Positions 1-13,758 of a DNA stretch of 44,945 nt are shown here, piece after piece (positions within the stretch are counted from its first letter, which is position 1; each line of letters starts with the position of its first letter). The DNA lies in assembly GCA_945482615.1 (NCBI GenBank), contig CALYRG010000007.1, positions 1 to 44,945 of the forward strand. Reading direction: 5' to 3'. The notes beneath the pieces were generated by a model. That model was given only the letters and a program-made list of their open reading frames with translations, was not told the DNA's origin and ran no database searches. Origin of the DNA: an uncultured Clostridia bacterium. GTDB taxonomy: Bacteria; Bacillota; Clostridia; Oscillospirales; Oscillospiraceae. A program made the translations under genes and the position numbers.

Positions 1-200
1 ATCGCCCGCCCCCTCGTAGGGGCGATTATCAATCGCCCGCCCCCTCGTAGGGGCGATTATCAATCGCCCGCCCCCTCGTAGGGGCGGTTATTAACCGCCC
101 GCCCCCGGTGGGGGCGATGATCAATCGCCCGCCCCCTCCGGTAGGGGCGATTATCAATCGCCCGCCCCCCGTAGGGACGATTATCAATCGCCCGCAACGT
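1..200. repeat. Tandem array of about 31-bp palindromic units (family A)
   Basis: Units start near 16, 47, 78, 108, 141 and 171, with a partial unit at the window edge, so the period is 30-33 bp. Each carries GTAGGGGCG followed by a hairpin such as GGGCGATTATCAATCGCCC (8-bp arms, 3-nt loop). The unit at 78 has GGTT/AACC where the others have GATT/AATC, so both arms changed together. There is no gene from 1 to 352; short frames here translate only the repeat. The array could belong to a larger cluster cut by the window edge. Confidence 0.9.
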
Positions 201-224
201 AGATTCCCATTTTGCGGGGTGTTT

Positions 225-275
225 CGGGCGGTTGATAACCGCCCCTACCTTCGGGCGGTTGATAACCGCCCCTAC
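225..275. repeat. Two family A palindromes in opposite orientation, 27-bp period
   Basis: Two copies of CGGGCGGTTGATAACCGCCC, each followed by CTAC, start at 225 and 252. They face the opposite way to the array at 1-200. The block ends about 80 bp beyond the stop codon of the minus-strand kinase gene and is followed by GGGTGCG, a heptamer that recurs at other repeat block ends here. Confidence 0.88.
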
Positions 276-352
276 GGGTGCGGGGGTGATTTCGGGTGGT
301 TGCCGCTGTCACCGGGCCTGGGCGAATACGCAGCCGCAGGGATGGGGGACAA

Positions 353-2200
353 TCAGTTCCACCGCTGGTTGTACTGCGCGCGGATTCGCTGATCGTTGCA
401 TTTGAAATCGTTCAGCTTGGTGCAGCCGGAGAATATCCAACTCATGTTTATAACGCTGGCGGTATCAAAGCCGGAGACATCCAGTTCTGTCAGGCTTTCG
501 CATTTGTTGAACATCGCATACATATTAGTGACCTTGGAAGTATCAAAGCCGGAGACATCCAGTGCAGTCAGGCTTTTGCAGCTGTTGAACATCCCACGCA
601 TGTCGGTAACCTTCGCGGTATCAAAGCCGGAGACATCCAGCTCTGTCAGGCTTTTGCAATTGTTGAACATATAGCCCATGTCGGTAACCTTGGAAGTATC
701 AAATCCGGAGACATCCAGTTCTGTCAGGCTTTCGCAGCCGGAGAACATCCAGCCCATGTTTGTCACGCTGGAGGTATCCAAGCAGTTGCCAAAGTCAATA
801 GCCGTAGTGTTTACAAAACCGGAAAACAGGAAGGAGGCGTTGGGGTTGGGAGCGATGATGCCATCTGCCGCCACGGTCAGATTTCCATCCTCCATCCAGG
901 CGAGGATGCTCCTGTCCCCGGCCTCCGACACATCCCAGGCAGTCCGGGGCACATCCGAGAGGCTGTCCCGGAAGGTCACGGTTTTCACGTCAGAGCGCTT
1001 GTACGCAACCTGTCCCCAGAAGGTAAGGTCTGATCTTTCATCGATAGCCACATCCTTCTGATTCTCCGCTGCCGCCATGACGTTGACCTTGATGGGCGGC
1101 TGGGTGGGCATTGCAGGATTTTCCGGTTGGTTCTTTCCTCTCACGCCAAAGCCAAGGGCAAAACCCAGGAGCACCGCCACCACGGCAACGGCGGCGATAA
1201 CGATGTAGGGCGTTTTCTTCTTGTGATTATGAGGCGTTCCGGCGGTTTGCAGCTGGCTGAGAAACGCCCCCATGGACTGAGTACGGCTCTTGGCGGAGAC
1301 GGTCATGGCCTTTTGCAGGGCGGAGATAACATTTGCCGGGACGTTTCGACTTGTCAGCAGCTTCCAGTCCAGGGAGTCCTCCTCCACCCGGTCATTGGCG
1401 TTGGGGGGCAGCACCCCGGTGAGGGTGTAGTAAATGGTTGCCGCCATGGCGTACACGTCCGACCAGGGGCCGGAGCCGCCCCGCTGGGTGTACTGCTCAA
1501 AGGGGCTAAAGCCGCTTTTGGCCACCTGGGCGGAGGATGCGCCATTGCCCACAGAGAGGTCTTTGGCTGCGCCCAGGTCGAGAATCCGCACACCCTTGCC
1601 GGTCAGCATCAGATTGTCCGGGCTTAAATCCCGGTGGACAAGCCCTGCCTGGTGCACCTTTTCCATGGCGGAAATGGCGGGGAGAAAGATATCCTTGGCT
1701 TTCTCCCAGGGCATGGGGCCTTTCTCTTTCAGAACGGACAGGAGGGTCTTGCCCTCGATGTAGTCCATGATGATGTAGGCAGTATCGTTCTCCAGGAAGC
1801 TCTCCCGGACGCCCACAACCTCCGGGATGTCCTCCACCTTGGCCATCTTCCGGGCCTCCCGGAGGAAAGAGTCCATACCGGTGGTGCGAACATCCTGAGA
1901 AGCGGAATCACTGGCCCATTGCAGGGAGCAGCTCATGGTGGTAAACCGGCTGGCAAGGCCCCTGGGGTAGAACTCCTTGATGGCAACCTTCCGCTGCAGG
2001 CTCAGATCGTAGCCAATATAGGTAATGCCGAAGCCGCCCTGGCCCAGCACCCTGCCCACCACATAGTGGCCGTTCAGCACCGTTCCCCGGGGAAGCACGA
2101 AATTGTCTTGCTGCCCCCTGGGATCAAAGCCGCAGTGGGGACAGGGGTAGCCCTGAATTTCCTCCATACAGCCAAAGCAACGGTTAAACTGCATACACAT
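353..2200 (-). CDS. Membrane Ser/Thr protein kinase with zinc ribbon and BspA-type LRR tail
   Basis: Predicted receptor-like kinase of 615 residues. An N-terminal zinc ribbon (CxxC at residues 8-11, CPHC at 20-23) precedes a kinase domain at about 45-315 with glycine loop GQGGFGITY (53-61), Lys75 in VAIKEF, HRD at 189-191, and DLG in place of DFG at 208-210. All catalytic residues are present, so activity is likely. One membrane helix spans about 331-353. Beyond it, outside the cell by inference, lie about five 26-residue repeats of the DUF285/BspA leucine-rich type (LDVSGFDTSKVTDM). It has no PASTA domains, unlike PrkC. It has its own promoter-like sequence and is separated from the next gene of the island by 475 bp of repeats. 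The ligand and the substrate are unknown. Confidence 0.88.
   Translation of the reverse strand: MCMQFNRCFGCMEEIQGYPCPHCGFDPRGQQDNFVLPRGTVLNGHYVVGRVLGQGGFGITYIGYDLSLQRKVAIKEFYPRGLASRFTTMSCSLQWASDSASQDVRTTGMDSFLREARKMAKVEDIPEVVGVRESFLENDTAYIIMDYIEGKTLLSVLKEKGPMPWEKAKDIFLPAISAMEKVHQAGLVHRDLSPDNLMLTGKGVRILDLGAAKDLSVGNGASSAQVAKSGFSPFEQYTQRGGSGPWSDVYAMAATIYYTLTGVLPPNANDRVEEDSLDWKLLTSRNVPANVISALQKAMTVSAKSRTQSMGAFLSQLQTAGTPHNHKKKTPYIVIAAVAVVAVLLGFALGFGVRGKNQPENPAMPTQPPIKVNVMAAAENQKDVAIDERSDLTFWGQVAYKRSDVKTVTFRDSLSDVPRTAWDVSEAGDRSILAWMEDGNLTVAADGIIAPNPNASFLFSGFVNTTAIDFGNCLDTSSVTNMGWMFSGCESLTELDVSGFDTSKVTDMGYMFNNCKSLTELDVSGFDTAKVTDMRGMFNSCKSLTALDVSGFDTSKVTNMYAMFNKCESLTELDVSGFDTASVINMSWIFSGCTKLNDFKCNDQRIRAQYNQRWN
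462..773 (-). repeat. 78-bp tandem repeats encoding the LRR tail
   Basis: The core GTATCAAAGCCGGAGACATC recurs at 462, 540, 618 and (with one change) 696, exactly 78 bp apart, with a decayed copy at 774. Each unit encodes 26 residues. The near identity at the DNA level suggests recent duplication, or unit number change by slippage. Confidence 0.9.
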
Positions 2201-2225
2201 TTCCCCTTTTCGCCTTGTTTTCTAC

Positions 2226-2254
2226 ATCATACCACAGAAAAACCCAATCCGCAA
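2226..2254 (-). promoter_or_regulatory. Promoter of the LRR kinase gene
   Basis: Read on the minus strand: TTGCGG (2249-2254), a 17-bp spacer, then TATGAT (2226-2231). It lies about 25 bp upstream of the start codon. The -10 matches the sigma-A consensus in five of six positions; the -35 is weaker. Confidence 0.55.
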
Positions 2255-2287
2255 TGAGAATGTGTTGAACGATGGAGAAAAGAGGCG

Positions 2288-2312
2288 TAGGGGCGATTAT
2301 CAATCGCCCGCC
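2288..2312 (+). repeat. Single family A palindrome
   Basis: GTAGGGGCG plus the hairpin GGGCGATTATCAATCGCCC, matching units of the array at 1-200. It is the first element of the 475-bp gene-free stretch 2201-2675, which otherwise holds a promoter and the repeat blocks listed separately. Confidence 0.88.
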
Positions 2313-2321
2313 GTCTGCCCT

Positions 2322-2431
2322 GCCCTCCCCTATGGGGAGGGTGCCCCCATAGGGGGCGGGAGAGGTTGTCCGTCATCGCACCGCCTCTTCCGTCACGGCA
2401 TAAGCCGTGCCACCTTCCCCATAGGGGAAGG
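2322..2431. repeat. Four-hairpin element (family C)
   Basis: Four perfect short hairpins stand in a row: CCCTCCCC-TAT-GGGGAGGG (2323-2341), GCCCCC-ATA-GGGGGC (2343-2357), CACGGC-ATAA-GCCGTG (2394-2409) and CCTTCCCC-ATA-GGGGAAGG (2413-2431). The third and fourth resemble the pair at 25143-25195 in the ethanolamine operon. No reading frame is supported. It is probably a non-autonomous mobile palindrome. Confidence 0.7.
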
Positions 2432-2438
2432 CAGTCCC

Positions 2439-2463
2439 GTAGGGGCGATTATCAATCGCCCGC
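2439..2463 (+). repeat. Single family A palindrome
   Basis: Identical in core to the copy at 2288-2312. The two copies flank the four-hairpin element, so elements 2288-2463 may have moved or duplicated as a block. Confidence 0.85.
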
Positions 2464-2485
2464 AACGCAGACGCTATAGCAGGGC

Positions 2486-2580
2486 AGGGGCGTGGTGCAT
2501 CGCACAGAGAATCGAAATCACCATGATTGCCGGTGGCAATCATGGTGATCTTGATTCGCTGCGGATCGCACTACGCCCCT
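2486..2580. repeat. Long palindromic element (family B), fullest copy
   Basis: A 95-bp near-perfect inverted repeat. The arms start AGGGGCGTGGTGCATCGCA and end TGCGGATCGCACTACGCCCC, and they meet at ATGATTGCCGGTGGCAATCA. Shorter relatives lie at 9894-9974, 13823-13908 and 16049-16110. It has the shape of a miniature inverted-repeat element and encodes nothing. Confidence 0.85.
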
Positions 2581-2585
2581 ACCTT

Positions 2586-2659
2586 CGGGCGGTTGATAAC
2601 CGCCCCTACCTTCGGGCGGTTGATAACCGCCCCTACCTTCGGGCGGTAACCGCCCCTAC
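2586..2659. repeat. Three family A palindromes, 27-bp period
   Basis: Copies start at 2586, 2613 and 2640. The third lacks the loop-side bases and reads CGGGCGGTAACCGCCC, a deletion at the centre of the hairpin. The block ends 16 bp from the stop codon of the minus-strand vWA-FHA gene and is followed by GGGTGCG. Confidence 0.88.
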
Positions 2660-2675
2660 GGGTGCGAAGATCCCC

Positions 2676-4232
2676 TTACGCCTGGAAGCTGACCCGGTAT
2701 TCCCGGGCGCCCAGCTTGATGGTGGCGCCGTTTTCCAGCTGCTGCAGGGAACCGGGAACCACCCGGGCGCCGTTGACGAAGGTGCCGTTGGTGGAGTTGT
2801 TATCCGCTACGAAGAGCTTTCCATTGCTCCACTGGAGGGTGCAGTGCCGTCCGGACATCTTGGGATCGCCCTGACCGTTGATCTTCAGGGCAATATCCGC
2901 CCGGTCGTCCCGGCCCAGCACCGCAGGCTGATCCATCCCCAGGTCAAAGGAGAAGGACTGATCCTTGTGGCCGATGACGGTGAGCAGCACATGCATGGAG
3001 GGGCCGGCGGGGGTCATAGGCTCGGTGACAAAGCCGGTGCCGCCCAGATCGAAGGGGCCGGTGGGGGTGATCCCATCCAGAGGCTTGGTGGTAAAATCCG
3101 ACTCGCCCACAGGGCCGGTGGCGCCGATATCCTGGGCCATACCGCTGTAGGGAGTTTCCTTGGGCTTTTTATTCTTCACCACCACAATAATCACCGTGAC
3201 GATGACCGCCAGGGCCGCCACCACGCCCAGAATCACTGCCACCCAGGGGAACTCCTTCTCCTGAGCCACAGGGCCGGGAATGGCGGGGGTGTTTGCCGTC
3301 TTGACCCCGGAGGACCTGGGTGCGGGCAGACCCTCGGTGGGAATGACCACGGAGTCCTCAAAGACATCCTTGCCGTCCTTGCAGTACAGGGTCAGGGTAA
3401 TGGTCTCCTCCCGGCTGGTCAGCTCGCTGCCGTGAACCAGCACAACGCTGGCGGCCTGCATGGTGTCATAGATGCCCTGGGCGATGCCCGCGGGCTTGTT
3501 GCCCTTGGCAGAGGTCTCGTAGAAGCCGCCGCCAACGGTGACCAGCATCATGTTTTTCAGGCCTTCCGCAACCTCGCGGGAGTAGTCGCCGGGGTCGTCC
3601 GGAAGACACCCCACGCCGAACACGGGGATGGTGCTCTGGGCGATGAGCTCCAGAATGCTCTTTTCCGTGATGTTGTCCTTGCCGCTGTCCTTGCCGTCAG
3701 ACAGGACGATCATACATTTGTTGAAATTGTATTCCGGGTTTCCCATCAGGCTGTCCAGGCCCTTGCTGATGGCCTTGTACAGATCGATGCTGGGAACGGT
3801 GTATTTCAGGGATTCAATGGCAGCCTTCCGGTCCTTGGAGTTGGTCAGGGGGCCGATCTCCTGCATACCTTCCCCCACGGCCAGAATGACCATGCTGTCC
3901 TTCTCCCCCATGAGGGCGCTCAGCTCCGTCAGAACCCCCAGCTGGCGTTCCTTGGACTGCTCGGACATATAGGAGGACAGGCCAACCACGCAGTAGAAGG
4001 TGGTGCCTGCTTCCATGTCCTTCATGGTGGTGACGGTTGCCTCCACAGCTTCGCCGTCGATGGCGACGCCCAGCTCCGCCTTGGCAGGCAGCGGTGCGCC
4101 GGGCACCATCAGGTACTCATCGTCGCAGATGTAGTAGGCATGGAGCAGCAGGCTGTTTTCCAGGGCGCCGGCGCTGAGGCTCAGGGAAAAGAGCATCAGC
4201 ACTGCCAGCAGAATGGCGATCAGTTTCTTCAT
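2676..4232 (-). CDS. Secreted-side vWA domain, membrane helix, cytosolic FHA domain protein
   Basis: 518 residues. A signal sequence covers about 1-23, then a von Willebrand A-like domain at about 78-245 (strand with MIVLSDGKD at 174-182), one membrane helix at about 328-353, and a canonical FHA domain at about 430-518 with LGRD, SGRHC and NSTNGTF. The FHA should bind phosphothreonine inside the cell while the vWA domain faces outward. The metal-site motif DxSxS is not intact: the matching stretch reads VVGLSSYM (82-89), with Gly for the Asp, so metal-dependent adhesion is doubtful. The ribosome site GAGGTG precedes the start. It lies 2 bp from the phosphatase gene, so it is translated in the same operon. 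Confidence 0.88.
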   Translation of the reverse strand: MKKLIAILLAVLMLFSLSLSAGALENSLLLHAYYICDDEYLMVPGAPLPAKAELGVAIDGEAVEATVTTMKDMEAGTTFYCVVGLSSYMSEQSKERQLGVLTELSALMGEKDSMVILAVGEGMQEIGPLTNSKDRKAAIESLKYTVPSIDLYKAISKGLDSLMGNPEYNFNKCMIVLSDGKDSGKDNITEKSILELIAQSTIPVFGVGCLPDDPGDYSREVAEGLKNMMLVTVGGGFYETSAKGNKPAGIAQGIYDTMQAASVVLVHGSELTSREETITLTLYCKDGKDVFEDSVVIPTEGLPAPRSSGVKTANTPAIPGPVAQEKEFPWVAVILGVVAALAVIVTVIIVVVKNKKPKETPYSGMAQDIGATGPVGESDFTTKPLDGITPTGPFDLGGTGFVTEPMTPAGPSMHVLLTVIGHKDQSFSFDLGMDQPAVLGRDDRADIALKINGQGDPKMSGRHCTLQWSNGKLFVADNNSTNGTFVNGARVVPGSLQQLENGATIKLGAREYRVSFQA

Positions 4233-4234
4233 AG

Positions 4235-4957
4235 TTACACCTCAATTATTACCGCAACGGCTGTATTGTTGTCCACATCGTCGTACTTTCTCAGGTTTGC
4301 CCGGGTTCGCAGGGAGCTGAGCCATTGGGCGGCAGAGTCAGCCCAGTGAAGATCCATCATGATCTCCTCCTCGCACAGCCGCTCCCACAGGCCGTCGGTG
4401 CACAGTAAGAATGCGTGTCGTCCCCGCTGGAGCTTCACCGGCTCGTGAATTTTGGGCTTGATGTTCTCCTCCCCCAGGACATAGAGCACCTTGCTCCGGT
4501 CGGGATGCATGGGGATCTGCTGCCGGGTGATCTCCCCCTGGAGCACATGGAGCTGACACACGGACTGATCCAGGGTCAGGTCCGCCACCTCCCCATTGTA
4601 GAAGTGGTAGAGCCGGGAATCGCCGGTGTGGGCCCAGATGGCCTTGTTCCCGTCAAAGTACAGGGCCACCGCCGTGGTCTTCATGTGCCAGGGGCCGTCC
4701 CGCTTGCACAGAATCTCGCTGTTGGCGTCCTCCATCCAGGCCATGATCTGCTCCTGGGTGGGGAGCTTGTCCTCGATGCGGAAGCGGCTGAGGGCCTCCA
4801 CCGCGATTTTGGAGGCATCCGCTCCGCCGCCGTGGCTGCCCAGTCCATCGGCCACCACCGCAAAGCCACGGCTGTCCGTCAGCTTGCAGCCGCTCAGGGA
4901 GTCCTCGTTCTCCCGCCGGGTGCCGATATCGGTATATTTGCATAAATCAATTTTCAT
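4235..4957 (-). CDS. PP2C-family Ser/Thr protein phosphatase, soluble
   Basis: 240 residues with no membrane segment, so it is predicted cytosolic. It removes phosphate from Ser/Thr, using two metal ions held by Asp residues. Visible PP2C motifs in order are RRENEDS near the N terminus, VADGLGSHGGG, KTTAVAL, GDSRLY, DGLW and DNNTAV at the C terminus. The size matches the minimal PrpC-type catalytic domain. The gene is wedged between the vWA-FHA gene (2 bp) and the kinase-FHA gene (4 bp), which points to co-translation and to a job reversing the action of the kinases in this operon. Confidence 0.93.
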   Translation of the reverse strand: MKIDLCKYTDIGTRRENEDSLSGCKLTDSRGFAVVADGLGSHGGGADASKIAVEALSRFRIEDKLPTQEQIMAWMEDANSEILCKRDGPWHMKTTAVALYFDGNKAIWAHTGDSRLYHFYNGEVADLTLDQSVCQLHVLQGEITRQQIPMHPDRSKVLYVLGEENIKPKIHEPVKLQRGRHAFLLCTDGLWERLCEEEIMMDLHWADSAAQWLSSLRTRANLRKYDDVDNNTAVAVIIEV

Positions 4958-4961
4958 AGTG

Positions 4962-6254
4962 TTATCCTATCCTGTACTGCTCCTGTCCTCCGAAGGCCAG
5001 AAGACAGCCGGTTACATCATACCATTTTCCATGCTGGAGCTGACTTTTCCCATTGGGGGAAACACAGATGGTGCCGTAGGTGGAGCACTCGTCGCAGGCC
5101 AGCACCCTGCCGTCCTTCTTGGCATAGAGCCGAAGCTGCACCCGGCTGACCCCCTTGGTTGTTGGGGGATACGCCACATGGCACTCCGGATTCCTGCCCA
5201 GAGTGAAATACTGCTCCAGGGGCAGATTCCAGGCCCTGCCCGCGAACTGGCCGCTCTGGCAGCGAAGCACTCTGCCGGAGGCCGGGCCCTGGGGCTTGGC
5301 ACCGCCGCCAATGGAGACACCGCCGCCCTGCTGGACATAGCTTGCCGTGTTCGGCTTGCCTCCTCCGGGCATGACCTCTCCGAAGAGCGCATAGTAGAGC
5401 TGATCCATCTTCTGGGTACGGTTTGCAGCCTTCACCGCCATGCCGTGATCCAGCGCCTTGTACACCTGCTCCGGAAGTCCCGGGCGGAGCTTCCGAAGGG
5501 GGATCAGGGAGTCCGTGGTGTAGCGCTCCGTGGCCTTGGGGGGGAGCTTGCCGCTGAGGCTGTAGTAGATGGTCACGCACAGGGAGTACACATCGGTATA
5601 GGGCCCCTGCTGGATCACGCTGGAAAACTGCTCCCAGGGGGCAAAGTTGCCCTTGACGTAGGCGGTCATGGCCCCATCCTGGCTGTAGGAGCGGACGTTG
5701 CCGAAGTCGATGAGCTTTCTCTGGCCGTTTTTCAGCAGAAAGATATTGTCGGGGCTCACGTCCCGGTGGATCACACCGGCGGCATGGAGCCTGCCCAGGG
5801 TGACCATGATGGGCTTGACGATTCCGGAAAGCTCCTGCCAGCCCATGGGGCCGTCCTTCTGGAGCTTCTTGCCCAGGGTAGTGCCGTCCAGATACTCCAT
5901 CACATAGTAGCTGGTGCCGTTTTCCAGGAAGGCGTGGTACAGCCGCACCACATCCCGGACGTCCTGAAGCTGAACCAGCATCATGGTCTCCTTGGAAAAG
6001 CTGGCCTTGATTTTTTCAAAGCTCTGCTTGCTCTCCTGGCTGGTGGGAAGCACCGTCACCTTGTCCGGCCCCCGCTGAACCTGGGAGGTGGGGAACAGCT
6101 CCTTCACCGCCACCATGCGGTTGGAGGATACGTCCCTGGCCATGTAGGTGATGCCAAAGCCGCCCTGCCCGAGAACATCCCCGATCTGGTACTGCCCATG
6201 GAGGGTATAGCCGTAGGGCAGTGCCTGGGGGCTTCTGGACTTGTTTCCGGTCAT
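4962..6254 (-). CDS. Soluble Ser/Thr protein kinase with C-terminal FHA domain
   Basis: 430 residues with no membrane helix. The kinase domain (about 20-285) has GQGGFGITY (29-37), Lys51 in VAVKE, HRD at 163-165 and DFG at 183-185, all intact. A glycine-rich linker leads to an FHA-like domain at about 350-430. There the usual motifs are altered: GRNPECH is kept, but SRxH reads SRVQ and SxNGT reads STYGT, so phosphothreonine binding may be weak or changed. Start ATG with GGAGGG 8 bp upstream. In tight operon with phosphatase genes on both sides. FHA-linked kinases commonly recognise their own autophosphorylation sites; that is family knowledge and was not seen directly. Confidence 0.93.
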   Translation of the reverse strand: MTGNKSRSPQALPYGYTLHGQYQIGDVLGQGGFGITYMARDVSSNRMVAVKELFPTSQVQRGPDKVTVLPTSQESKQSFEKIKASFSKETMMLVQLQDVRDVVRLYHAFLENGTSYYVMEYLDGTTLGKKLQKDGPMGWQELSGIVKPIMVTLGRLHAAGVIHRDVSPDNIFLLKNGQRKLIDFGNVRSYSQDGAMTAYVKGNFAPWEQFSSVIQQGPYTDVYSLCVTIYYSLSGKLPPKATERYTTDSLIPLRKLRPGLPEQVYKALDHGMAVKAANRTQKMDQLYYALFGEVMPGGGKPNTASYVQQGGGVSIGGGAKPQGPASGRVLRCQSGQFAGRAWNLPLEQYFTLGRNPECHVAYPPTTKGVSRVQLRLYAKKDGRVLACDECSTYGTICVSPNGKSQLQHGKWYDVTGCLLAFGGQEQYRIG

Positions 6255-6268
6255 ACGCCGGCCCTCCG

Positions 6269-7213
6269 TCAGAAGCCCAGAATGACAGCGGTGAAGTTAT
6301 CCTGTCCCCGGGCCTGTGCCGCCAGCACCTGATTTTCCATCAGGGAGGCCGCCTGGGTCACGTCCGGGCATTTGGTGAGGATCTCCGCCATCTGCTGATC
6401 CGAAAGGGTTCCGAAGACACCATCGCTCATCAGCAGAATCCGGTCTCCGGGGGCAATGGCGATGGAGGAACGGCTGGCGCTGAGGTAGCGCAGCTTGCCC
6501 ATACCGATGAAGCTGGTGAGCTTTTTGCCGTCGGGGTTATTCATGGCATCCTGGATGCTCATGCGCCCCGCCTGAACCTCCGGCATCCACTCGGTGGTGA
6601 GCTGGTTGTGCTCCGGGTTGACCTGGTTCATCACGCCGCCCCGGAACAGATAGATCCGGCTGTCGCCTACCGAGGCCCAGGAGAACTTCTTGCCGTCGGA
6701 GAGCACCGCAAGCAGCGTAGAGCCGCTTTTGTAGATTCCCTCCGGGCCCAGCATCTTGTTGATGTCGGCGCAGATGCTCTCCACCATCTGGGGCAGGATG
6801 GTATCCATGGTGTTCGGGCGGAACTGGGGGGCTGCTGCGTGGACATCCTGGACGATCCGGCCGCTGACCTTTTCGCCGCCGGACAGGCCGCCCATGCCGT
6901 CGGCCACCACGGCCAGAACACCGGCGCCGCCAAACACGGACTCCACACACTTGTTATCCTGCTGGGAGGGCCGTGCGCCCTGGTTGTGCACGATGCCCAC
7001 GGAGCAGACCTGGCCCTTTCTCCTGCCGGTCAATGCCGCTGCCTCCTCTGTGTTGGAAATGGGGTCCATCCGGGCTGATCTGCGGCCCAGGGCGCGGTTT
7101 TCCTGGGCCACCCGGGCTGCCAGCTTGTCCGCCCGGACGGTGAGCAGAATCACCGCGATGAGATCCAGTCCCAGCAGAGCCAGCAGGGAGAAGAACATAA
7201 TTTTCATCATCAT
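6269..7213 (-). CDS. Membrane-anchored PP2C-family phosphatase
   Basis: 314 residues. An N-terminal membrane helix at about 4-26 is followed by a charged linker and a PP2C domain at about 75-314. Motifs are VVADGMGGLSGGE, GSTLLAV, SVGDSRIY, LMSDGVFG and QDNFTAVIL; the first metal motif reads RPSQQDN rather than RxxNED, which is common in the family. It is the second phosphatase of the island and differs from the soluble one by being held at the membrane. Three ATG codons in a row (7213, 7210, 7207) make the exact start uncertain; the first is best spaced from AGGA. Confidence 0.9.
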   Translation of the reverse strand: MMMKIMFFSLLALLGLDLIAVILLTVRADKLAARVAQENRALGRRSARMDPISNTEEAAALTGRRKGQVCSVGIVHNQGARPSQQDNKCVESVFGGAGVLAVVADGMGGLSGGEKVSGRIVQDVHAAAPQFRPNTMDTILPQMVESICADINKMLGPEGIYKSGSTLLAVLSDGKKFSWASVGDSRIYLFRGGVMNQVNPEHNQLTTEWMPEVQAGRMSIQDAMNNPDGKKLTSFIGMGKLRYLSASRSSIAIAPGDRILLMSDGVFGTLSDQQMAEILTKCPDVTQAASLMENQVLAAQARGQDNFTAVILGF

Positions 7214-7230
7214 ATCATTTCCTCATTGAT

Positions 7231-7797
7231 TCATTGGTCTGCGGAAGGATCGTCCACCACGGAAGGGGGATTCACCTCGGGAATATTGCTGTCCGCGGGA
7301 GGATTATTTTCCGCGGGAGGATTGTTTTCCGCGGGAGGATTGTTTTCCACGGGGGGATTGTTTTCCGCGGGGGGATTGTTTTCCGCGGGAGGATCGTCGG
7401 ACACCGGAGGATCGCTCACCTGCGGGATTTGCTGGTCCCCCGGAGGCGTGGTCTGCGGCGGAGTGGTGGCCTCGCTATTTTCGGGTGGTGCCCCGTTTGC
7501 GGGAGGCGGGTTGTTATTGTCTTCGGATTTGGGGCTGCCGGAGCCTGTTCTGTCGGTGTCCAGTGTCTCGCCGTTTGTGGGCTCCGTGGTGGCTTCCGTA
7601 GCCGCCTCCGTTGTGGCCAGGAAGTTTTCGGGGATCCGGGGGCCGGTAGAGCCGGTGGGGTCGGTCTCCTCGGGGGCCTGCGCCGGACGGAAGGCCATAA
7701 AGCCCGTCACCACCACGGCAGCCGCCAGGAGCAGGGCCAGAACCGCCAGGACATTGCGCCAGGCCTTCGCCCGTTTCCATTTTTTCTCAGCGGTCAT
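7231..7797 (-). CDS. Membrane protein with proline/asparagine hexapeptide repeats
   Basis: About 188 residues from the ATG at 7797; an upstream TTG at 7806 is poorly placed for the GAGAGG site. A short basic N terminus is followed by one membrane helix, then a low-complexity acidic tail rich in Pro, Glu, Asn and Thr. The tail includes about six copies of PPAENN. The positive-inside rule puts the tail outside, so it may act as a wall-spanning stalk or as a threonine-rich target. No enzyme motif is seen. It overlaps the next upstream gene by 11 bp, so it is part of the operon. The function is unknown. Confidence 0.75.
   Translation of the reverse strand: MTAEKKWKRAKAWRNVLAVLALLLAAAVVVTGFMAFRPAQAPEETDPTGSTGPRIPENFLATTEAATEATTEPTNGETLDTDRTGSGSPKSEDNNNPPPANGAPPENSEATTPPQTTPPGDQQIPQVSDPPVSDDPPAENNPPAENNPPVENNPPAENNPPAENNPPADSNIPEVNPPSVVDDPSADQ
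7290..7395 (-). repeat. 18-bp repeats encoding PPAENN
   Basis: About six near-identical copies of GGAGGATTGTTTTCCGCG (plus strand) stand head to tail inside the proline-rich gene, each encoding one hexapeptide. Silent changes between copies are few, so the array is young or kept uniform by slippage. Confidence 0.9.
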
Positions 7798-8488
7798 CCC
7801 AATCAAACCTCTCTCCGCACAGGGGGATAAAGACCAGCTTGGTCTGCCCCAGGGTGATGATGTCGTAGGCCTTCAGCTCGCTCTGGCCCAGGCACATTTT
7901 GCCGTTGAGCCGGACGGCGTTGTGGCCCATGCCGGGGCCGAAGTAGAACAGCCGCTCCATAGAGTCGTAGGCCACGATGGCGGCGTTTTCATTGCTGATG
8001 TGGCTGTCGCCGGGGATGCAGATGTCCATGCTCTGGGCCCGGCCGATGTAGTTGTAGCCGTTGTGGATGCGGTAGTCGCTGCCCTTGTTATTGCCCTCCA
8101 CGCACACCAGCCAGCCAACCACAGGCTGAATGCCGGAGAATGCAGCGCCGGTGACGGTGCTGTCGCCGTAGCCCACAGGGGTGGTGGGGGTGTAGTCCTG
8201 AACCATGCTGGCCCCGCCGCCCACCATGTCGGGGGGGGCGTCAATGGGGGTGGTCTTGGCGTAGTCCTGGACAGGGGGATCGTTGGGCAGGGTGGGCTGG
8301 GTGTCCATAACACCGGCAAAGCCGCCGCCGTTGCCGGCAACCACAGGCTCCGTCTGGAAGTTAAAATCCACAGGCACGGTGGTCATGCCGCTGCCGCCGC
8401 CCATGCTGCTGTTCTGGGCGCACTTGGGGCAGCTGGATGTCTGGCTGGGATCGTAGAAATGACCATTGGGGCAACGAAGAATTTCCAT
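7787..8488 (-). CDS. Zinc-ribbon protein with divergent FHA domain
   Basis: 233 residues from the ATG at 8488, chosen because GGAGG lies 8 bp upstream; an in-frame upstream start (8509) has none. The N terminus reads CPNGHFYD then CPKC, a zinc ribbon common at the front of Firmicute FHA proteins. The middle is Thr/Pro/Gly-rich with several TTP motifs that could be phosphorylated. The C-terminal FHA fold keeps IGRAQ, but SRxH is SNEN and the NGT motif is absent (GHNAVRLNG), so binding of phosphothreonine is doubtful. There is no membrane helix. It may be a cytosolic adaptor that is itself a kinase target. In operon with the proline-rich gene. Confidence 0.82.
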   Translation of the reverse strand: MEILRCPNGHFYDPSQTSSCPKCAQNSSMGGGSGMTTVPVDFNFQTEPVVAGNGGGFAGVMDTQPTLPNDPPVQDYAKTTPIDAPPDMVGGGASMVQDYTPTTPVGYGDSTVTGAAFSGIQPVVGWLVCVEGNNKGSDYRIHNGYNYIGRAQSMDICIPGDSHISNENAAIVAYDSMERLFYFGPGMGHNAVRLNGKMCLGQSELKAYDIITLGQTKLVFIPLCGERFDWDDR

Positions 8489-8558
8489 AGCTTTTTCCTC
8501 CAAAATCAATATGAATATTCGGATAGTCGGTTTGTATATCAGGCCAGAGGCACACTCT

Positions 8559-8625
8559 GTAGGGAACGGATTTATCCGTTCCGCGGATCCGGGTGCGAAA
8601 GGGAATGCATAAATGCATTCCCTAC
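8559..8625. repeat. 67-bp element with two palindromes (family D)
   Basis: It begins GTAGGGAACGG and ends CATTCCCTAC. Inside are GGAACGGATTTATCCGTTCC and GGAATGCATAAATGCATTCC. A second copy lies at 38438-38503, about 30 kb away. The right end is 10 bp from the stop codon of the protease-FHA gene. Confidence 0.9.
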
Positions 8626-8635
8626 GAGGGTTTGG

Positions 8636-9850
8636 TCAGCAGATGGTAAAGCGGTTGGTGGAGGCAGAGCCCAGGGTGAACTCCGTGCCCTTGCCGATCT
8701 GCACAGGCACATTTACGGCAATCCGGTTGCCCCCCACGAAGGTGCCGCCGCTGGAGCCCACATCCGTCAGAGTGATGACGCCCTTGCGAAGCTCCACTTT
8801 GCAGTGGTGCCGGCTGACGCCCTTGGTGTCCGGGGGCATACAGATCTGGCAGTCCGCCAGCCGTCCGATGAGCATGGGGCCCTCCGCCAGAGGAACCATG
8901 CTGCCGTCGGGGCAGCGCAGCCAGGCGGACAGGGAGGGCTTCTTCTTTCCCTTGACCAGCACCAGAACGATGACCACGGCGCAGATCAGAATCACAAGAC
9001 CCAGGCCGCCGTACAGGAGCCAATCACTGCTGCCGGAGCCGGACTTGGTGGAGTAGGCAACGCCCAGAAGGCTCAGCCGCTCCATGATGTAGCCGGTGCT
9101 GATGGCGATGCAGTAGGCGTTGTTTTCCGCGGAACTGTAGGTGTTGATGCCCACAACCCGGCCCTTGGCGTCCACAAGGGGGCCGCCGGAGTTGCCGCTG
9201 GCGATCTGGGCATCATGCACCAGAACGCTGATGGTCTGGGACACGCCCATGTCCATGTTCATGTGCTGGGAGACAACGCCGGAGGTGATGGTGATATCGT
9301 CGATGCCGGAGCCGACGGAGCTGTTCAGATCACCGATGAGGCCAGGGTAGCCCAGGGCATAGACCGGGGTTCCGGAGGCCACATCGTCGGAGTGGCGCAG
9401 GGGCAGGGCCTTGAAGCCGGTGACGGTACTGGTGGCGCGGATGATGGCGTAGTCGGGAACGCCGCCGTTATCGGCAGAGGAATACAGCACCTCGCACTCC
9501 ACGGCGTTCTGAGGCACCAGGTTCTGATCCAGATACCAGTCGTCCAGCAGCAGGTACACCCGCACCATGGACGGGTCATAGCCGCCGCAGGTGGTGACGT
9601 GCCAGTTGGTGACGAAGACATTGGTGTCCTGCCCTGCCTTGCCCACGGCAAAGCCGGTGCCGGTGCAGGCATCGATGGGGATGCCGCTGGTTTTGTCGCC
9701 CTTGTAGACGATGGCCAGCAGCTGGACAACACCCTTCTTGACCTCGGCGAGCATCTTGCTGTCGTCCGCAGCGGAGGCGGGCAGCATCAGCATACTCATG
9801 CACAGCAGCAGCGCTGTCAGAAGGCTTAGAAACCGCTTGACGTTTTTCAT
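8636..9850 (-). CDS. Extracellular trypsin-like serine protease, membrane helix, cytosolic FHA domain
   Basis: 404 residues from the ATG at 9850, preceded by AGAGGA at proper spacing; a longer upstream reading is only repeat sequence. Order: signal sequence 1-28; HtrA/trypsin-like protease domain about 35-265 with His84 in TNWHV, Asp133 in PDYAII and Ser221 in GNSGGPL; membrane helix about 277-300; basic stop-transfer GKKKP; FHA domain about 325-404. The protease therefore acts outside the membrane and the FHA reads phosphothreonine inside. There is no PDZ domain. The FHA has IGRLADC and SRHHC, but SSGGT replaces SxNGT. It could cut envelope proteins in response to kinase signalling, or report outside damage inward. 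Confidence 0.9.
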   Translation of the reverse strand: MKNVKRFLSLLTALLLCMSMLMLPASAADDSKMLAEVKKGVVQLLAIVYKGDKTSGIPIDACTGTGFAVGKAGQDTNVFVTNWHVTTCGGYDPSMVRVYLLLDDWYLDQNLVPQNAVECEVLYSSADNGGVPDYAIIRATSTVTGFKALPLRHSDDVASGTPVYALGYPGLIGDLNSSVGSGIDDITITSGVVSQHMNMDMGVSQTISVLVHDAQIASGNSGGPLVDAKGRVVGINTYSSAENNAYCIAISTGYIMERLSLLGVAYSTKSGSGSSDWLLYGGLGLVILICAVVIVLVLVKGKKKPSLSAWLRCPDGSMVPLAEGPMLIGRLADCQICMPPDTKGVSRHHCKVELRKGVITLTDVGSSGGTFVGGNRIAVNVPVQIGKGTEFTLGSASTNRFTIC

Positions 9851-9893
9851 TCTCATTCCTCTTTTCTGCATCTTTATGGTTATTCGGGATTCG

Positions 9894-9974
9894 GCGGGCG
9901 ATTGATAGGAAATTATGGTATGATTGCCACCGGCAATCATGGAGATTTTGATTCGCTGCGCGTAGCACCACGCC
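9894..9974 (-). repeat. Family B palindromic element
   Basis: It starts GCGGGCGATTGATAGGAAAT, has the central palindrome GATTGCCACCGGCAATC, then GATTCGCTGCGCG, and ends in CACCACGCCC. It matches the element at 13823-13908 in reverse orientation over almost its full length, including the GATAGGAAATTATGG segment that is absent from the copy at 2486-2580. It lies in the 226-bp gap between two genes of the signalling operon. Confidence 0.85.
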
Positions 9975-9979
9975 CATGC

Positions 9980-10057
9980 GGGTGCGGTGGAAGGCGGGCG
10001 ATTAATAATCGCCCCTACGGGTGCGGTGGAAGGCGGGCGATTAATAATCGCCCCTAC
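9980..10057. repeat. Two identical 39-bp direct repeats each holding a family A palindrome
   Basis: Units at 9980 and 10019 each run from GGGTGCGGTGGAAGGC through the hairpin GGGCGATTAATAATCGCCC to CTAC. The right edge is about 20 bp beyond the stop codon of the DUF5684-FHA gene. Confidence 0.9.
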
Positions 10058-10076
10058 GGGTGCGGGGGATGATGGG

Positions 10077-10988
10077 TTAAACCAGCGTAAATACGTTGTC
10101 CAGGCCGAGGGTGATGGTGTCTCCCTCCCGCAGCTCCACGGGGACATTGGCAGGAATCTTTCCGAAGCCCTCCACCGCCGTGCCGTTGGTGGAGCCCAGA
10201 TCCATGACAAAGAGCTTATCCTCCCGCCAGAAGAAGCGGCAGTGATTGCCGGAGACCCTGGGGTCGCTGATCAGAATGTCACAGCCGGGGGCTCTGCCTG
10301 CGGTGACGGAGCCGCGGATGAGGAAGCTGCTGCCGGCGCACACGCCCTTCTGGCAGCGCAGGAAATGCTGCATCTGCTCCGGGGGGAGGGCTGCGGTGGA
10401 AGCCGGCGGGGATACGTCAGGGGAGGCAACGCTGACCGTCCGGGAAAAATCCTGGGAAGGAAAGGCCGTTGGCCCTCCGGAGTCCGGAACCGGATCCAGC
10501 CGGGGCTGGGGGGCGGGCTGGGGCCGGGACTGGGGTTTCCGGGTGCCGGAAGCGCCCCGGAACACGGCATCGCCGGAGAAGGCCAGAATGCCCCGGAACA
10601 CAATGCCCAGCAGGATCAGACCCCAGCCAAAGCCGGCGCTCTTTCCGAAGCTCCGGGCCAGGGCCTTCTGCATCCGGATCATGCAGCGCAGGCCGTAGAT
10701 GGAAAGACCCAGGGACAGGATTGACAGCACAATCACCAGGATGGCCAGGTCGTCTTGCGGCCCGATCAGCGCATTGGAGATACCCGACAGGAAGCCCCCG
10801 CCGTAGACCCCCAGAATCTGCTTCCAGAACAGATCTCCCGCGCCGCTGGCGGCGTAAATACAGTACTCGCCGTAGATGGGAATGAGGCACTTCCAGCCCG
10901 GCTGCCCCTGCTTCTGAAGGATTCTCCAGGCCTCCACGAGCATGAGAACCGGGATCGCCAGGGACAGCAGCCCTACAATCAATTCCAT
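10077..10988 (-). CDS. Four-helix DUF5684 membrane domain fused to cytosolic FHA domain
   Basis: 303 residues. The N-terminal 145 or so residues form about four membrane helices, with a GQPGWKCLIPIYGEYC motif (16 residues) typical of DUF5684, a domain of unknown function often found in Firmicute envelope proteins. A Pro/Arg-rich linker follows. The FHA domain at about 225-303 has GRAPGCD, SGNHC and GSTNGT, all canonical, so phosphothreonine binding is likely. The start ATG at 10988 has GGGAGG upstream. The gene sits between the protease-FHA and small FHA genes. It may be a docking point that brings phosphorylated partners to the membrane; this is inference. Confidence 0.87.
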   Translation of the reverse strand: MELIVGLLSLAIPVLMLVEAWRILQKQGQPGWKCLIPIYGEYCIYAASGAGDLFWKQILGVYGGGFLSGISNALIGPQDDLAILVIVLSILSLGLSIYGLRCMIRMQKALARSFGKSAGFGWGLILLGIVFRGILAFSGDAVFRGASGTRKPQSRPQPAPQPRLDPVPDSGGPTAFPSQDFSRTVSVASPDVSPPASTAALPPEQMQHFLRCQKGVCAGSSFLIRGSVTAGRAPGCDILISDPRVSGNHCRFFWREDKLFVMDLGSTNGTAVEGFGKIPANVPVELREGDTITLGLDNVFTLV

Positions 10989-11003
10989 AGCTGTTTTCCT
11001 CCC

Positions 11004-11558
11004 TTATTTCATCTTCACCCGGAAGGCGCAGCGCTCCTCCCCGATCCAGAAGACGCTGTCCGGGTACAGCCGAACCGGCATTCTGGCAGGGATGGTTCCG
11101 GTGCCCGCAACCACGGTGCCGTTGGTGGAGCCAAGGTCCGTCAGATACAATGCGCCATTTTCCCAGGTGACCTGGCAGTGGGTGCCGGAGACCTTGGGCT
11201 CATTCACATGGATGTCCGCAGAGGAGCTGCGGCCGATCACTGCTTTGGTGACGATGCCGTAGTGCTTGCCCCCCAGGAAAGCCCCCTGGGCCTCCAGCGT
11301 GGCGTGGTGCTTGTCCTTGGGCTTGCCGATCATAATGGGCTGGTCGGACTGGGAAGCGCCGCCCTTTTTCATCAGCAGCACCACCAGCACCGCGATAAGG
11401 GCCAGGACTGCTGCCGCGATCAGAACGATCATCCAGCCGCTGCCGGAGCTGACCGTCTCCGAGGAGCCAACCCGGCTGGCAGACGCCGGAAGGGCCAGGG
11501 CCGCGATGGTGGGAAGGCTGAGCATTCCCACGGTGGCTGTGCGAAATACGTTTTTCAT
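11004..11558 (-). CDS. Small membrane protein with cytosolic FHA domain
   Basis: 184 residues from the ATG at 11558 with GGAGAG upstream; a longer reading overlaps the pseudokinase gene and lacks a better site. A signal-like hydrophobic N terminus (1-28) and a short Ser/Gly-rich outside loop precede one membrane helix (about 41-64), a KKGG stop, then a canonical FHA domain (GRSSSAD, SGTHC, GSTNGT). The layout is like the vWA-FHA and protease-FHA proteins but with almost no outside domain. It is the second gene of the island after the pseudokinase, 13 bp away, under the same promoter. Confidence 0.87.
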   Translation of the reverse strand: MKNVFRTATVGMLSLPTIAALALPASASRVGSSETVSSGSGWMIVLIAAAVLALIAVLVVLLMKKGGASQSDQPIMIGKPKDKHHATLEAQGAFLGGKHYGIVTKAVIGRSSSADIHVNEPKVSGTHCQVTWENGALYLTDLGSTNGTVVAGTGTIPARMPVRLYPDSVFWIGEERCAFRVKMK

Positions 11559-11571
11559 GCTGCTCTCTCCT

Positions 11572-13677
11572 TTATTCCGTTCGCTCGTAAGCGTACTGCA
11601 CATTGGTGCCGTCGGTGGAGGCAAAGCCGATCTTCAGCTGATTGCCCACCATATTGACGGAAACATAGCCCCGGACGCCCTCCACGTCCTTCATGCTCAG
11701 CTGGTAGAGGGTCACCGTCTGCCGGAAGAACAGGGTCTCCCGGTCGGCGGTGGACAGATTGGCACAGCTGTACCAGTCCAGATTTCCCTGCGCCGTGATG
11801 GTATCGTCGTCATTTAAGATGTAGTGGAGGGTCAGGGTCAGACTATGGCTCTCGTCCACATCGTAGGAGTAGATCCAGCCATTCTTTGTCAGGGTGGATT
11901 TGCCGGTGGCCAGCTTCCAATTCCCCTCCAGATTCAGGAGCTTTTTGTGCTTTTCAAGCTTTTCCAGCCGGGCGTCCCGGTCAATGTCCTGATAGACCGC
12001 GCCTTCGGAGGCCTGGAGGAACTGTTCCTGGGCAAGACCCAGGAAGCCCTGATCGTACAGGCTCTCGGCTTCGCACAGGATGGCGCCGTCCACCAGCACC
12101 TGGGCTCTGTCAGACGCCAGCTTTTTCTGCTGGCAGAAGGAGACGTAGCTCTCCGCCGCCGTCCGGGCCTCCTCAAACTGCTCCTGGCCCAGAAGCTGGG
12201 TCACCAGGCCCTCATTGGCCTCAAACAGGGACTGCTCGTCCTCTGCGGCGGCAAAGCCCTCTGTGAGCTTCTGCACCGCGTCCCGGTAGTCTTTGTGGGT
12301 CAGGCTCTGCATACCGTCGGCGTAGGTGCTGTAAACCTCAGCCTCCGCCGTACCCAGGTCTGCTGCCCTGGCGAAGCTGTCCCGGGCCAGATCATAGGTT
12401 TTGTCTTCCAGCTGCTCCCTGCCAAGGGCCATGTAGCTCTCGCCCAGAAGAGATCTTGCGTCCTGGGAGTCCCCGGCATCCCGAAGAAACGCGACGGCAT
12501 CGGCGAAGCGCCCTTCGTCAAAGGCCTTTTGGCCCGCCTCCAGGTGCTTCTGCTCGGAGGCGAAAACCGCCTGTTCTTCTGCATCCCGGTAGCCACCCAG
12601 GGCCTCGAACCGCTCCTGAGCATCGCCGTAGGCCCCGGCGGCCAGGGCATCCGCTGCCTGATTGTAGCGCGTATTCTGCACCAGGAAGAAACCGCCCACA
12701 CCCAGAACCACGGCTGCCGCAGCAGCGGCAAGGCCGATCCACACAGGCTTTCGGGAGGGGGCCGCCTTGGCAGTGGATGCAAGCTGCTGGCTGAACGCCT
12801 CCATGGAGGCGGTTCGCTTCTTTTGGTCGGGCTCCATGGCTGCCTGGAGAACAGCCGCTGCCTGCTGATTCACCGGGAGCTTCTGCCCCTGGATGGGGGG
12901 CTGCCCGGTAAGGGCGTAGACCAGAGAGGCCGCCAGCATGTAAACATCGCTGGCTTCCGTCAGGGAGCCGGCCTGGTCAAAGGCCTCCGGGGGGCTGTAG
13001 CCCTTCCGGCGGACGCTGGCGCACACCGTGCAGGTGCTTCCTGCGGTGATGATGTACTCCATGTCCGGACGGAGAATCAGTCCGGTATCGGTGAGGATCA
13101 GACTCCCGGGGTGGATATTGCCGTGGAGGACTCTTGCCTTATGCAGCCGCTGGAGCGCCCTGGCAGCCCCGGCAAACAGAGGCGCCGCGGTCTGCCACTT
13201 CATGGGCTTGCCGGAGGAAATCTGCTCTTTCAGGGGTTTGCCCGGCACCGCGTCCAGCACGCAGCAGCAGGTGCCGTTCTCCAGGAACAGATCCCGGACG
13301 TGGACGATCCCGGCCACGTCCGTCAGGGAGGAATACCGGTGGGCATTGGTGCGGAAGCTCTGGACACCGGCCTGGAAATCCCCGGGGATGCTGCCGTCGC
13401 TGCGCACCTGAACCGTGCCGTTTTCCCGGCCTGTGACCCAGTCAGCGGGCAGATATTCCACCACCTGAACGGTTCGTTCCAGGCTCAGGTCGAAGGCTGC
13501 GTAGCGCATGGTGAAGGGCTTTGCCTCTGCCGCGCCCAGAAGATACCGGGCGTTCACAATGGAGCCCAGGGGCAGGGCATTGGCCGGGGGCGTGTAGGCC
13601 GCCGGGTCAAAGCCGCAGTGGGGACATTTGTCCGTGGTGATGTCCGCCATGCAGCGCATACATTTGTTGATCCTCAC
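11572..13677 (-). CDS. Membrane pseudokinase with zinc ribbon and TPR-like outside tail
   Basis: 701 residues, GTG start at 13677 with GAGAGG 7 bp upstream. The N-terminal zinc ribbon (CMRC, CPHCGFDP) and kinase fold match the LRR kinase at 353-2200, but the catalytic residues are gone: the glycine loop reads LGAAEAKPFTMRY (47-59), the VAIK lysine is Val73, HRD is HGN (185-187), and DFG/DLG is replaced by RPD (203-205). ATP use is therefore very unlikely. One membrane helix (about 312-333) leads to a helical tail with TPR-like repeats (AYGDAQERFEALGGYRDAEE) and a C-terminal beta-rich domain. As the first gene after the island's strongest promoter, it may scaffold or regulate the two active kinases. 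Confidence 0.87.
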   Translation of the reverse strand: MRINKCMRCMADITTDKCPHCGFDPAAYTPPANALPLGSIVNARYLLGAAEAKPFTMRYAAFDLSLERTVQVVEYLPADWVTGRENGTVQVRSDGSIPGDFQAGVQSFRTNAHRYSSLTDVAGIVHVRDLFLENGTCCCVLDAVPGKPLKEQISSGKPMKWQTAAPLFAGAARALQRLHKARVLHGNIHPGSLILTDTGLILRPDMEYIITAGSTCTVCASVRRKGYSPPEAFDQAGSLTEASDVYMLAASLVYALTGQPPIQGQKLPVNQQAAAVLQAAMEPDQKKRTASMEAFSQQLASTAKAAPSRKPVWIGLAAAAAAVVLGVGGFFLVQNTRYNQAADALAAGAYGDAQERFEALGGYRDAEEQAVFASEQKHLEAGQKAFDEGRFADAVAFLRDAGDSQDARSLLGESYMALGREQLEDKTYDLARDSFARAADLGTAEAEVYSTYADGMQSLTHKDYRDAVQKLTEGFAAAEDEQSLFEANEGLVTQLLGQEQFEEARTAAESYVSFCQQKKLASDRAQVLVDGAILCEAESLYDQGFLGLAQEQFLQASEGAVYQDIDRDARLEKLEKHKKLLNLEGNWKLATGKSTLTKNGWIYSYDVDESHSLTLTLHYILNDDDTITAQGNLDWYSCANLSTADRETLFFRQTVTLYQLSMKDVEGVRGYVSVNMVGNQLKIGFASTDGTNVQYAYERTE

Positions 13678-13758
13678 GTGTTATCCTCTCCTTATTTGTC
13701 TCGGAAAGACACAGAACTGGTAAAAATGCCTAAAAATACACAGTCTATATATTTATTG

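Follow-up and report, generated by a model that had tools for sequence, protein, structure and literature searches.

A phosphothreonine signalling island in an uncultured Clostridia bacterium: a possible shared hub for scattered receptor-like kinases

Introduction

Does a compact cluster of kinase, phosphatase and FHA genes form a whole signalling circuit, or is it a hub for partners encoded elsewhere in the genome? The question is raised by a stretch of 44,945 nucleotides (the window) from an uncultured Clostridia bacterium of the Oscillospiraceae, i.e., positions 1 to 44,945 of the forward strand of contig CALYRG010000007.1 (C7) in GenBank assembly GCA_945482615.1. The window begins at base 1 of the contig, and the assembly is 1.82 Mb in size and 71% complete. 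From 353 to 13677 the window carries an island of 11 genes (g1 to g11), all on the minus strand, which an earlier note had described as a complete phosphothreonine signalling island. The reading that we favour, with a probability of about 0.5, is that a family of receptor-like kinases uses the island in common, as a hub for readout and reset. About a dozen similar sensor kinases, most of them scattered in the genome, probably share it.

Results

The Island Combines Kinases, Phosphatases and Six FHA Domains

Genes in the island were assigned from Pfam domains, hydropathy (for transmembrane, TM, segments) and motif checks. Two encode kinases with intact motifs. These are g1 (353..2200), a receptor-like protein in which a zinc ribbon and a Ser/Thr kinase domain precede a TM segment and an ectodomain of PARCEL/DUF285 repeats, and g4 (4962..6254), a soluble kinase with an FHA domain at its C-terminus; the Pkinase matches of both exceed the Pfam cut-off. 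The product of g11 (11572..13677), in which a zinc ribbon, a pseudokinase domain, a TM segment and an ectodomain with a weak TPR match follow one another, also scores above the Pkinase cut-off, but its motifs are altered: the G-loop is broken, V replaces the catalytic K, and HGN and DME stand instead of HRD and DFG. Two further genes match the Pfam PP2C_2 phosphatase family, one soluble (g3, 4235..4957) and one with a TM segment at the N-terminus by hydropathy (g5, 6269..7213).

FHA domains score above the Pfam cut-off in g2, g4, g8, g9 and g10, and these are the only five PF00498 matches in the 71%-complete assembly, with none outside the island. Four of these proteins join the FHA domain to an outside or membrane module. 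The g2 product (2676..4232) comprises a signal peptide, a vWA-like domain, a TM segment placed by hydropathy, a linker and the FHA domain; the vWA match is below the cut-off in the window (20.9 versus 23.8 bits) and above it in two relatives (L117 and L119). In the TerY-P type triad, which consists of the vWA protein TerY, a PP2C phosphatase and a kinase, the vWA protein is by contrast cytoplasmic and stands alone. The g8 product (8636..9850) has a signal peptide, a trypsin-like protease domain, a TM segment and an FHA domain, and the catalytic triad (H, D, S) is present in all ten aligned proteins of this type, the window's copy included. It shares the trypsin-like domain and triad with HtrA and DegS; Pfam gave no PDZ match in g8, which carries the FHA domain instead. 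In g9 (10077..10988) the FHA domain follows a DUF5684 membrane domain (Pfam and hydropathy), and in g10 (11004..11558) it follows a signal-peptide-like start, a short outside stretch and a TM segment, with the start and signal peptide taken from reading the translation.

The sixth FHA domain, that of g7 (7787..8488), lies under the Pfam cut-off (16.6 versus 20.7 bits). An AlphaFold2 model of g7 has a mean pLDDT (predicted local distance difference test) of 60.8 overall, with blocks of 64-90 across the FHA domain, and resembles solved FHA domains (best Foldseek E value 5e-6; target TM-score up to 0.86 among the matches listed). On this model the sixth domain is confirmed. An Arg and a Ser of the FHA domain bind phosphothreonine. 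Both are found in all six window domains; across the FHA domains aligned, the Arg is present in 217 of 234 and the Ser in 231 of 234, and among g7-type domains (75, window included) in 75 and 72, respectively. PMC1262709 mentions this role of the two residues.

The inventory drawn up in the earlier note (11 minus-strand genes, two intact kinases, a pseudokinase, two PP2Cs and six FHA domains, at least four of them in proteins with an outside or membrane module) is borne out by Pfam, hydropathy, motifs and the g7 model. Its statement that this is not the usual PrkC/PrpC pair also holds, in that PrkC carries PASTA repeats and Pfam found none in g1, g4 or g11. A separate PASTA kinase lies on contig C5, apart from the island, with a PrpC-like PP2C alongside.

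The Island Recurs as a Co-inherited Unit

A g7 alignment search over one genome per species (84,980 species) gave 429 relatives, and the best 80 of the 429 loci were used, with signalling genes called by home-built profiles. A PP2C gene was found in 76 of the 80 loci (two genes in 68, one in 8), a secreted trypsin-TM-FHA protein in 68, and a kinase, not counting kinase-FHA proteins, in 70. All three occurred together in 66 loci; these counts are lower bounds, several of the 14 loci missing a part being short contigs. Every signalling open reading frame (ORF) was on the same strand in 79 of the 80 loci. The usual gene order was TM-FHA, zinc ribbon-FHA (the g7 type), TM-PP2C, PP2C, trypsin-TM-FHA and one or two kinases. 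The core is the zinc ribbon-FHA protein, usually two PP2Cs, the protease-FHA protein and a receptor kinase. A second layout, which is that of the window, adds a kinase-FHA and a vWA-TM-FHA protein; both were present in 8 of 80 loci, and two second-layout loci carry a PrsW-protease-FHA fusion too. [Clostridium] asparagiforme DSM 15981 and Flavonifractor sp. An82 are among the genomes with an island.

The arrangement is also found outside the Clostridia. A tblastn search of plasmids with one g7 relative gave 19 records, all alphaproteobacterial, and a plasmid of Azospirillum lipoferum 4B has in a row vWA-TM-FHA, a g7-like FHA protein, PP2C-TM, PP2C-TM, trypsin-TM-FHA, FHA-kinase-DUF805 and kinase-TM. 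The earlier note had proposed a membrane-spanning phosphothreonine unit whose genes would be neighbours in relatives, and co-occurrence in 66 of the 80 loci and on this plasmid favours such a unit. The island is not a product of chance, because all five PF00498 matches of the assembly lie in it and its arrangement recurs in other genomes; it is a genuine co-inherited unit. It could still be asked whether these are a loose set of signalling genes with no joint function. Locus make-up does vary, and 14 of 80 loci lack a core part in the stretch examined. This explanation is already contradicted, since loci in two phyla agree in their parts, in strand and in much of their gene order; we find it barely credible.

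Some loci showed features of their own. Three regions on Leisingera and Ruegeria plasmids (L153-L155) hold a reduced kinase-FHA-PP2C set, in each case with dynamin-family genes close by. One genome carried the same island on two contigs (G005:C71 and C72, loci L035 and L036), 100% identical over 9,872 bases and in opposite orientation; this double island is probably an assembly duplicate. A kinase near the island at L119:250-3393 has weak AAA/NACHT-like matches, under the Pfam cut-offs, after its kinase domain. In one member of the window's genus (G001), g7 shows 99% and 95% identity to its counterparts in two metagenome-assembled genomes (MAGs; L052 and L053) named Candidatus Faecousia, which is therefore probably the genus concerned.

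Most Kinases of This Type Lie outside the Island

The assembly contains 15 kinase matches, i.e., the PASTA kinase, the three in the island and 11 on other contigs. The 11 scattered kinases all have the order zinc ribbon-kinase-TM, with G-loop, VAIK, HRD and D[LF]G motifs intact, and the zinc ribbon is shared with g1. Grouped by ectodomain, these 12 proteins comprise five with PARCEL/DUF285 repeats (by Pfam for g1, and by similarity to g1 for the other four), five with RCC1 propellers (all five scanned), one whose ectodomain repeats look YD- or MORN-like on visual inspection, and one that has additional TM helices. Their kinase parts are 57-88% identical pairwise. Between classes the kinase parts are 57-82% identical and the ectodomains 16-33%; within classes the corresponding values are 59-88% and 36-73%. 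The kinase core is alike throughout, but the ectodomains are swapped.

No FHA domain was found in the 4-6.5 kb flanking the 11 scattered kinases, and the PF13672 PP2C matches of the assembly were two in the island and one beside the PASTA kinase, with none elsewhere. Because most kinases of this type are encoded outside it, the island has the look of a hub more than of an entire circuit, and the word 'complete' in the earlier note is not supported.

A similar arrangement was seen in [Clostridium] asparagiforme, where seven such kinases adjoin the island in tandem. In the kinase part six of these agree at 70-79% among themselves and at 52-55% with the seventh, and the ectodomains differ; the four scanned were BspA leucine-rich repeats (LRR; two), an FMN-binding domain and DUF5050. 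Within the window's genus, the number of kinases outside the island had a median of 3 in the nine island-bearing genomes versus 2 in the remaining 28 (p = 0.016; with the window's genome left out, p = 0.041), with in-island kinase numbers set by hand for this count.

A diversified receptor set might also belong to an anti-phage or other conflict system. The island is patchy in the genus, with a g7 match in 9 of 37 genomes, the repeat-rich ectodomains are swapped, and the kinases are generally similar to PADLOC kinase models. However, the PADLOC hits, taken without a system-level test, are to kinase, PP2C and protease models of a generic kind; no known killing domain occurs in the island; and tblastn with one g7 relative gave no match in 50,697 phage records. 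A conflict system is accordingly a distinctly improbable explanation.

The g7 Linker Carries Repeated Threonine Motifs

In g7 proteins a low-complexity stretch separates the zinc ribbon from the FHA domain, and in the window's copy residues 38-119 have a pLDDT below 50, as expected of a disordered Thr/Pro linker. Around the Thr residues of these linkers, F occurs at -3 in 174 of 574 cases (26 expected), E at +1 in 168 of 577 (30 expected) and P at +2 in 177 of 577 (68 expected); the linkers carry repeated F-x-P/K-T-E-P motifs. The strict pattern F..TE is present in 96 copies in 51 of the 75 g7 proteins (300 shuffles: mean 1.3, largest 5), and the broader pattern [FYM]..T[EDQTM] in 172 copies in 71 of 75, where shuffling gives 10.0 copies on average and never more than 20. 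The g7 proteins are related and the copies therefore not independent; the repetition within single proteins is nonetheless plain.

Linkers of the other island proteins were examined in the same way. Those of kinases, kinase-FHA and vWA-FHA proteins showed no enrichment over shuffles, barring one vWA-FHA linker with two copies of one pattern, a number that shuffles reach as well. The t-FHA linkers likewise had no more motif copies than shuffles. A small excess was seen in two kinds: 69 trypsin-FHA linkers contained 3 strict copies, where no shuffle gave more than 1, and 73 PP2C linkers contained 5 broad ones, where no shuffle gave more than 3.

FHA domains select the residue at +3 of the phosphothreonine. 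The g7 repeats are candidate phosphothreonine acceptors and FHA docking sites, and g7 a proposed scaffold. It resembles GarA and OdhI in that an FHA protein carries Thr sites (candidate sites in g7) in an N-terminal tail, and the FHA folds of GarA and OdhI are among those that its model matches. GarA and OdhI have one or two Thr sites. Unlike these, g7 has several, starts with a zinc ribbon and gives no sign of a metabolic role.

The Pseudokinase and Other Non-core Genes

The earlier note had singled out three genes for co-occurrence, and only the protease-FHA gene proved to be part of the core. The pseudokinase g11 was considered as the heart of the system and rejected: among 139 aligned kinase domains (at least 200 residues; 80 loci plus the window) it is the only one lacking the catalytic Lys or Asp, and it has few relatives. 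A search with the g11 protein gave at least 22 matches, of which, among the matches listed, four were at 42% identity or more and one of these at 99%. One relative (P0004), 42-43% identical to g11, has lost most of the kinase part and retains the TM segment and ectodomain; the ectodomain therefore seems to be what is conserved in this family. DUF5684-FHA (g9) was rejected as a conserved part: for its membrane domain, the loci compared gave a single full relative (L120, 31%) and a further short match.

In the mycobacterial PknB/FhaA/MviN pathway a kinase, an FHA protein and a pseudokinase partner also act together, and MviN, once phosphorylated in its pseudokinase part, is bound there by FhaA (PMC11898655). 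The island could by analogy be a regulator of cell-wall growth, with g11 as docking partner. Unlike that pathway, the island has no PASTA repeats and no flippase, its pseudokinase is not conserved in the unit and is mostly missing from P0004, and a separate PASTA kinase with an adjoining phosphatase is present in the genome. We consider this role very improbable.

The remaining gene, g6 (7231..7806), encodes a TM segment and a Pro-rich tail, with no Pfam family above cut-off and no relative by BLAST in the loci compared.

A Proposed Shared Readout and Reset Hub

In the mechanism that we propose, kinases with the order zinc ribbon-kinase-TM-ectodomain would sense differing outside cues through their swapped ectodomains, and would phosphorylate Thr residues, most likely F-x-P/K-T-E-P-type repeats in the disordered g7 linker. 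The FHA domains of g8, g2, g9, g10 and the kinase g4 would then dock on the phosphorylated sites. Phosphorylation inside the cell would in this way build a membrane-spanning assembly that brings protease and vWA domain together outside, and the soluble and the membrane-bound PP2C would remove the marks. The protease and vWA domain would be the likely business end, with regulated cutting or adhesion at the surface as the output; a link from wall or surface sensing to proteolysis, as the earlier note had suggested, would follow from such an arrangement. As a more general and more tentative proposal, which we think somewhat less probable than its opposite, some gut Clostridia would have a repertoire of about a dozen closely related kinase cores whose repeat ectodomains are swapped, and all of these would act on a single multivalent phosphothreonine scaffold, on which a transmembrane protease assembly forms. 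The ectodomains of this repertoire are of the PARCEL and RCC1 propeller kinds here, and BspA LRR, FMN-binding and lectin-like in relatives.

Several points weigh against the hub reading. Phosphorylation and binding are both inferred, and the link from the scattered kinases to the island is deduced from paralogy and from the finding of no other FHA domains in the 71%-complete assembly. The genome-wide search for FHA and PP2C domains used PF00498 and PF13672 only, and PF00498 misses g7 itself. An FHA protein of about 570-600 amino acids that most members of the genus have was not found in this assembly, from which it may only be missing. In the window's own g7 the motif is less marked: the broad pattern matches twice, strict F..TE is absent, and FQTEPV comes near to it. 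Most of the 80 loci come from related gut MAGs. The 14 loci that lack a core part in the stretch examined include three of the second layout (L105, L122 and L128), at which no trypsin-FHA was detected in 17-21 kb. The excess of kinases within the genus in genomes with the island is modest, and weakly indicated. Finally, of the eight other island-bearing members of the genus, seven have 2-5 kinases outside the island, counting the PASTA kinase, so that a large kinase fleet is peculiar to this lineage and one more.

Regulated Proteolysis and the A5 Family

The protease in the island may be read differently, as a component of gene control by regulated proteolysis. Here the trypsin-like protease would act like a site-1 protease that FHA docking tethers or gates, and a PrsW-FHA membrane step, seen in relatives, and a protein family that we call A5 would relay the signal to transcription. 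The protease triad, intact in all ten aligned proteins, is consistent with this, as is the PrsW protease fused in two of the six TM-FHA proteins scanned in relatives (L117 and L122). A5 is a family of about 370 amino acids (e.g., L057:10940-12049) found near the island in 22 of 80 loci; in 16 it is downstream, for the most part convergent with the last kinase gene. Of 60 genomes, only island bearers have it (4 of 9 versus 0 of 51; Fisher p = 2.6e-4, or 0.0019 within the genus).

However, the window holds no PrsW-FHA gene, its 71%-complete genome has no A5 match, and no A5 was seen in five of the nine island-bearing genomes. The A5 model is all-helical (pLDDT 81), and parts look helix-turn-helix-like to the eye, without tool support, making DNA binding a guess from sequence. 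Two A5 members scanned gave no Pfam family above cut-off, and there was no PDB fold or sequence match, on which ground A5 was rejected as a known regulator. Overall, we regard control of genes by regulated proteolysis as an unlikely account of the island.

Comparison with Known Systems

The favoured reading, that of a shared hub, has a formal likeness in the plant LRR receptor kinases with KAPP, where many kinases with variable ectodomains have a common FHA/PP2C partner. Unlike that case, the island is bacterial and has FHA and PP2C on separate proteins, and a separate origin is assumed.

In the type VI threonine phosphorylation pathway (PpkA, PppA and Fha), a kinase, a phosphatase and an FHA reader are encoded together as in the island, and a phosphorylated partner recruits the FHA protein, according to PMC3953482. 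The same logic of kinase, PP2C and FHA might mean that the island controls a secretion machine, either in the manner of this pathway or as regulator of a type VII system encoded elsewhere. The island differs in having six FHA proteins, protease-FHA and vWA-FHA fusions, a Thr-repeat linker, many receptor kinases and no secretion component among its 11 genes, type VI genes not having been sought genome-wide. The type VI FHA model TIGR03354 gave 33.9-37.2 bits in g2, g8, g9 and g10, far under its cut-off of 120.25, and no match was listed for g4 and g7.

On the side of a type VII link, G032, which bears the island, encodes a full-length EssC-like ATPase that contains an FHA domain; another island bearer (G005) has a WXG100 match below cut-off, and a contig of a further genome (G029) holds more distant kinases, PP2C and trypsin-FHA together with type VII genes. 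Full-length EssC-like matches occurred, however, in 1 of 9 island-bearing genomes (G032) versus 2 of 51 others; the profile was built from two of these three matches, and the other listed matches were below 100 bits, like ordinary FtsK. WXG100 matches above cut-off were found in 0 of 9 versus 2 of 51. The window's genome (71% complete) had no WXG100 match, and its best match to the EssC profile was FtsK-like, at 82 bits. A type VII link is disfavoured, and control of a secretion machine of either kind appears improbable.

Two of these loci are worth recording in their own right. The ATPase of G032 (L039, on G032:C143) is in an island bearer that shows no WXG100 match, a case in which WXG100 alone would mislead. 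The contig G029:C47 (L031 and L032) is type VII-like, with WXG100 and an FtsK/SpoIIIE protein with FHA, and has its own kinases, PP2C, FHA protein and trypsin-FHA.

Neighbourhoods of kinase, PP2C and vWA genes are known from actinobacterial GAP1-N2 GTPase systems, in which the kinase often has a zinc ribbon (PMC7159879). There the vWA protein stands alone and a GTPase is central; in the island the vWA domain is predicted to be outside and is fused to FHA, and there is no GTPase. FHA-kinase fusions and a leucine-rich-repeat kinase, and the clustering of FHA genes with kinase and phosphatase genes in M. tuberculosis, are noted in PMC1262709. We found no description of a system like the proposed hub in the literature searched, with most subscription journals outside the reach of the search.

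Palindromes and Flanking Genes

The likely starts of g7, g8 and g10 fall within listed ORFs, near 8488, 9850-9856 and 11558. Seven of the ten gaps between island genes are of 17 bases or fewer (one is an overlap), and the other three are 147, 226 and 475 bases. The two largest contain REP-like palindromes, GGGCGGTT..AACCGCCC, which a palindrome scan placed at 20 sites in window positions 1-16100 and nowhere in the rest of the window. They form a cluster past the 3' end of g1 (1..271) and lie within the 475-base gap between g2 and g1 (2291..2632). Their density was 0.29 per kb in the loci of the scattered kinases (L137-L147) versus 0.012 per kb in 165 kb of controls from the same genome, and a palindrome was within 800 bp of four of the 11 scattered kinases, with none near the other seven. 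The palindromes may bear on the spread of the kinase genes. Further along the window, on the plus strand at 16373-25000, are genes whose translations resemble alcohol dehydrogenase and ethanolamine-type utilisation proteins with shell proteins.

Implications

If the proposed receptor-kinase repertoire is real, bacteria would have an equivalent of the plant receptor kinases that share an FHA/PP2C partner, and a Thr-repeat scaffold that several FHA proteins of one operon read. A conserved operon, present in uncultured gut Clostridia and in an Azospirillum, in which FHA domains are joined to a protease that is secreted, to a vWA domain, to a kinase and to a repeat-bearing scaffold, would offer a system for asking how phosphorylation inside the cell could organise enzymes outside it. 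It could also help to show which cues the numerous receptor-like kinases in gut Clostridia respond to.

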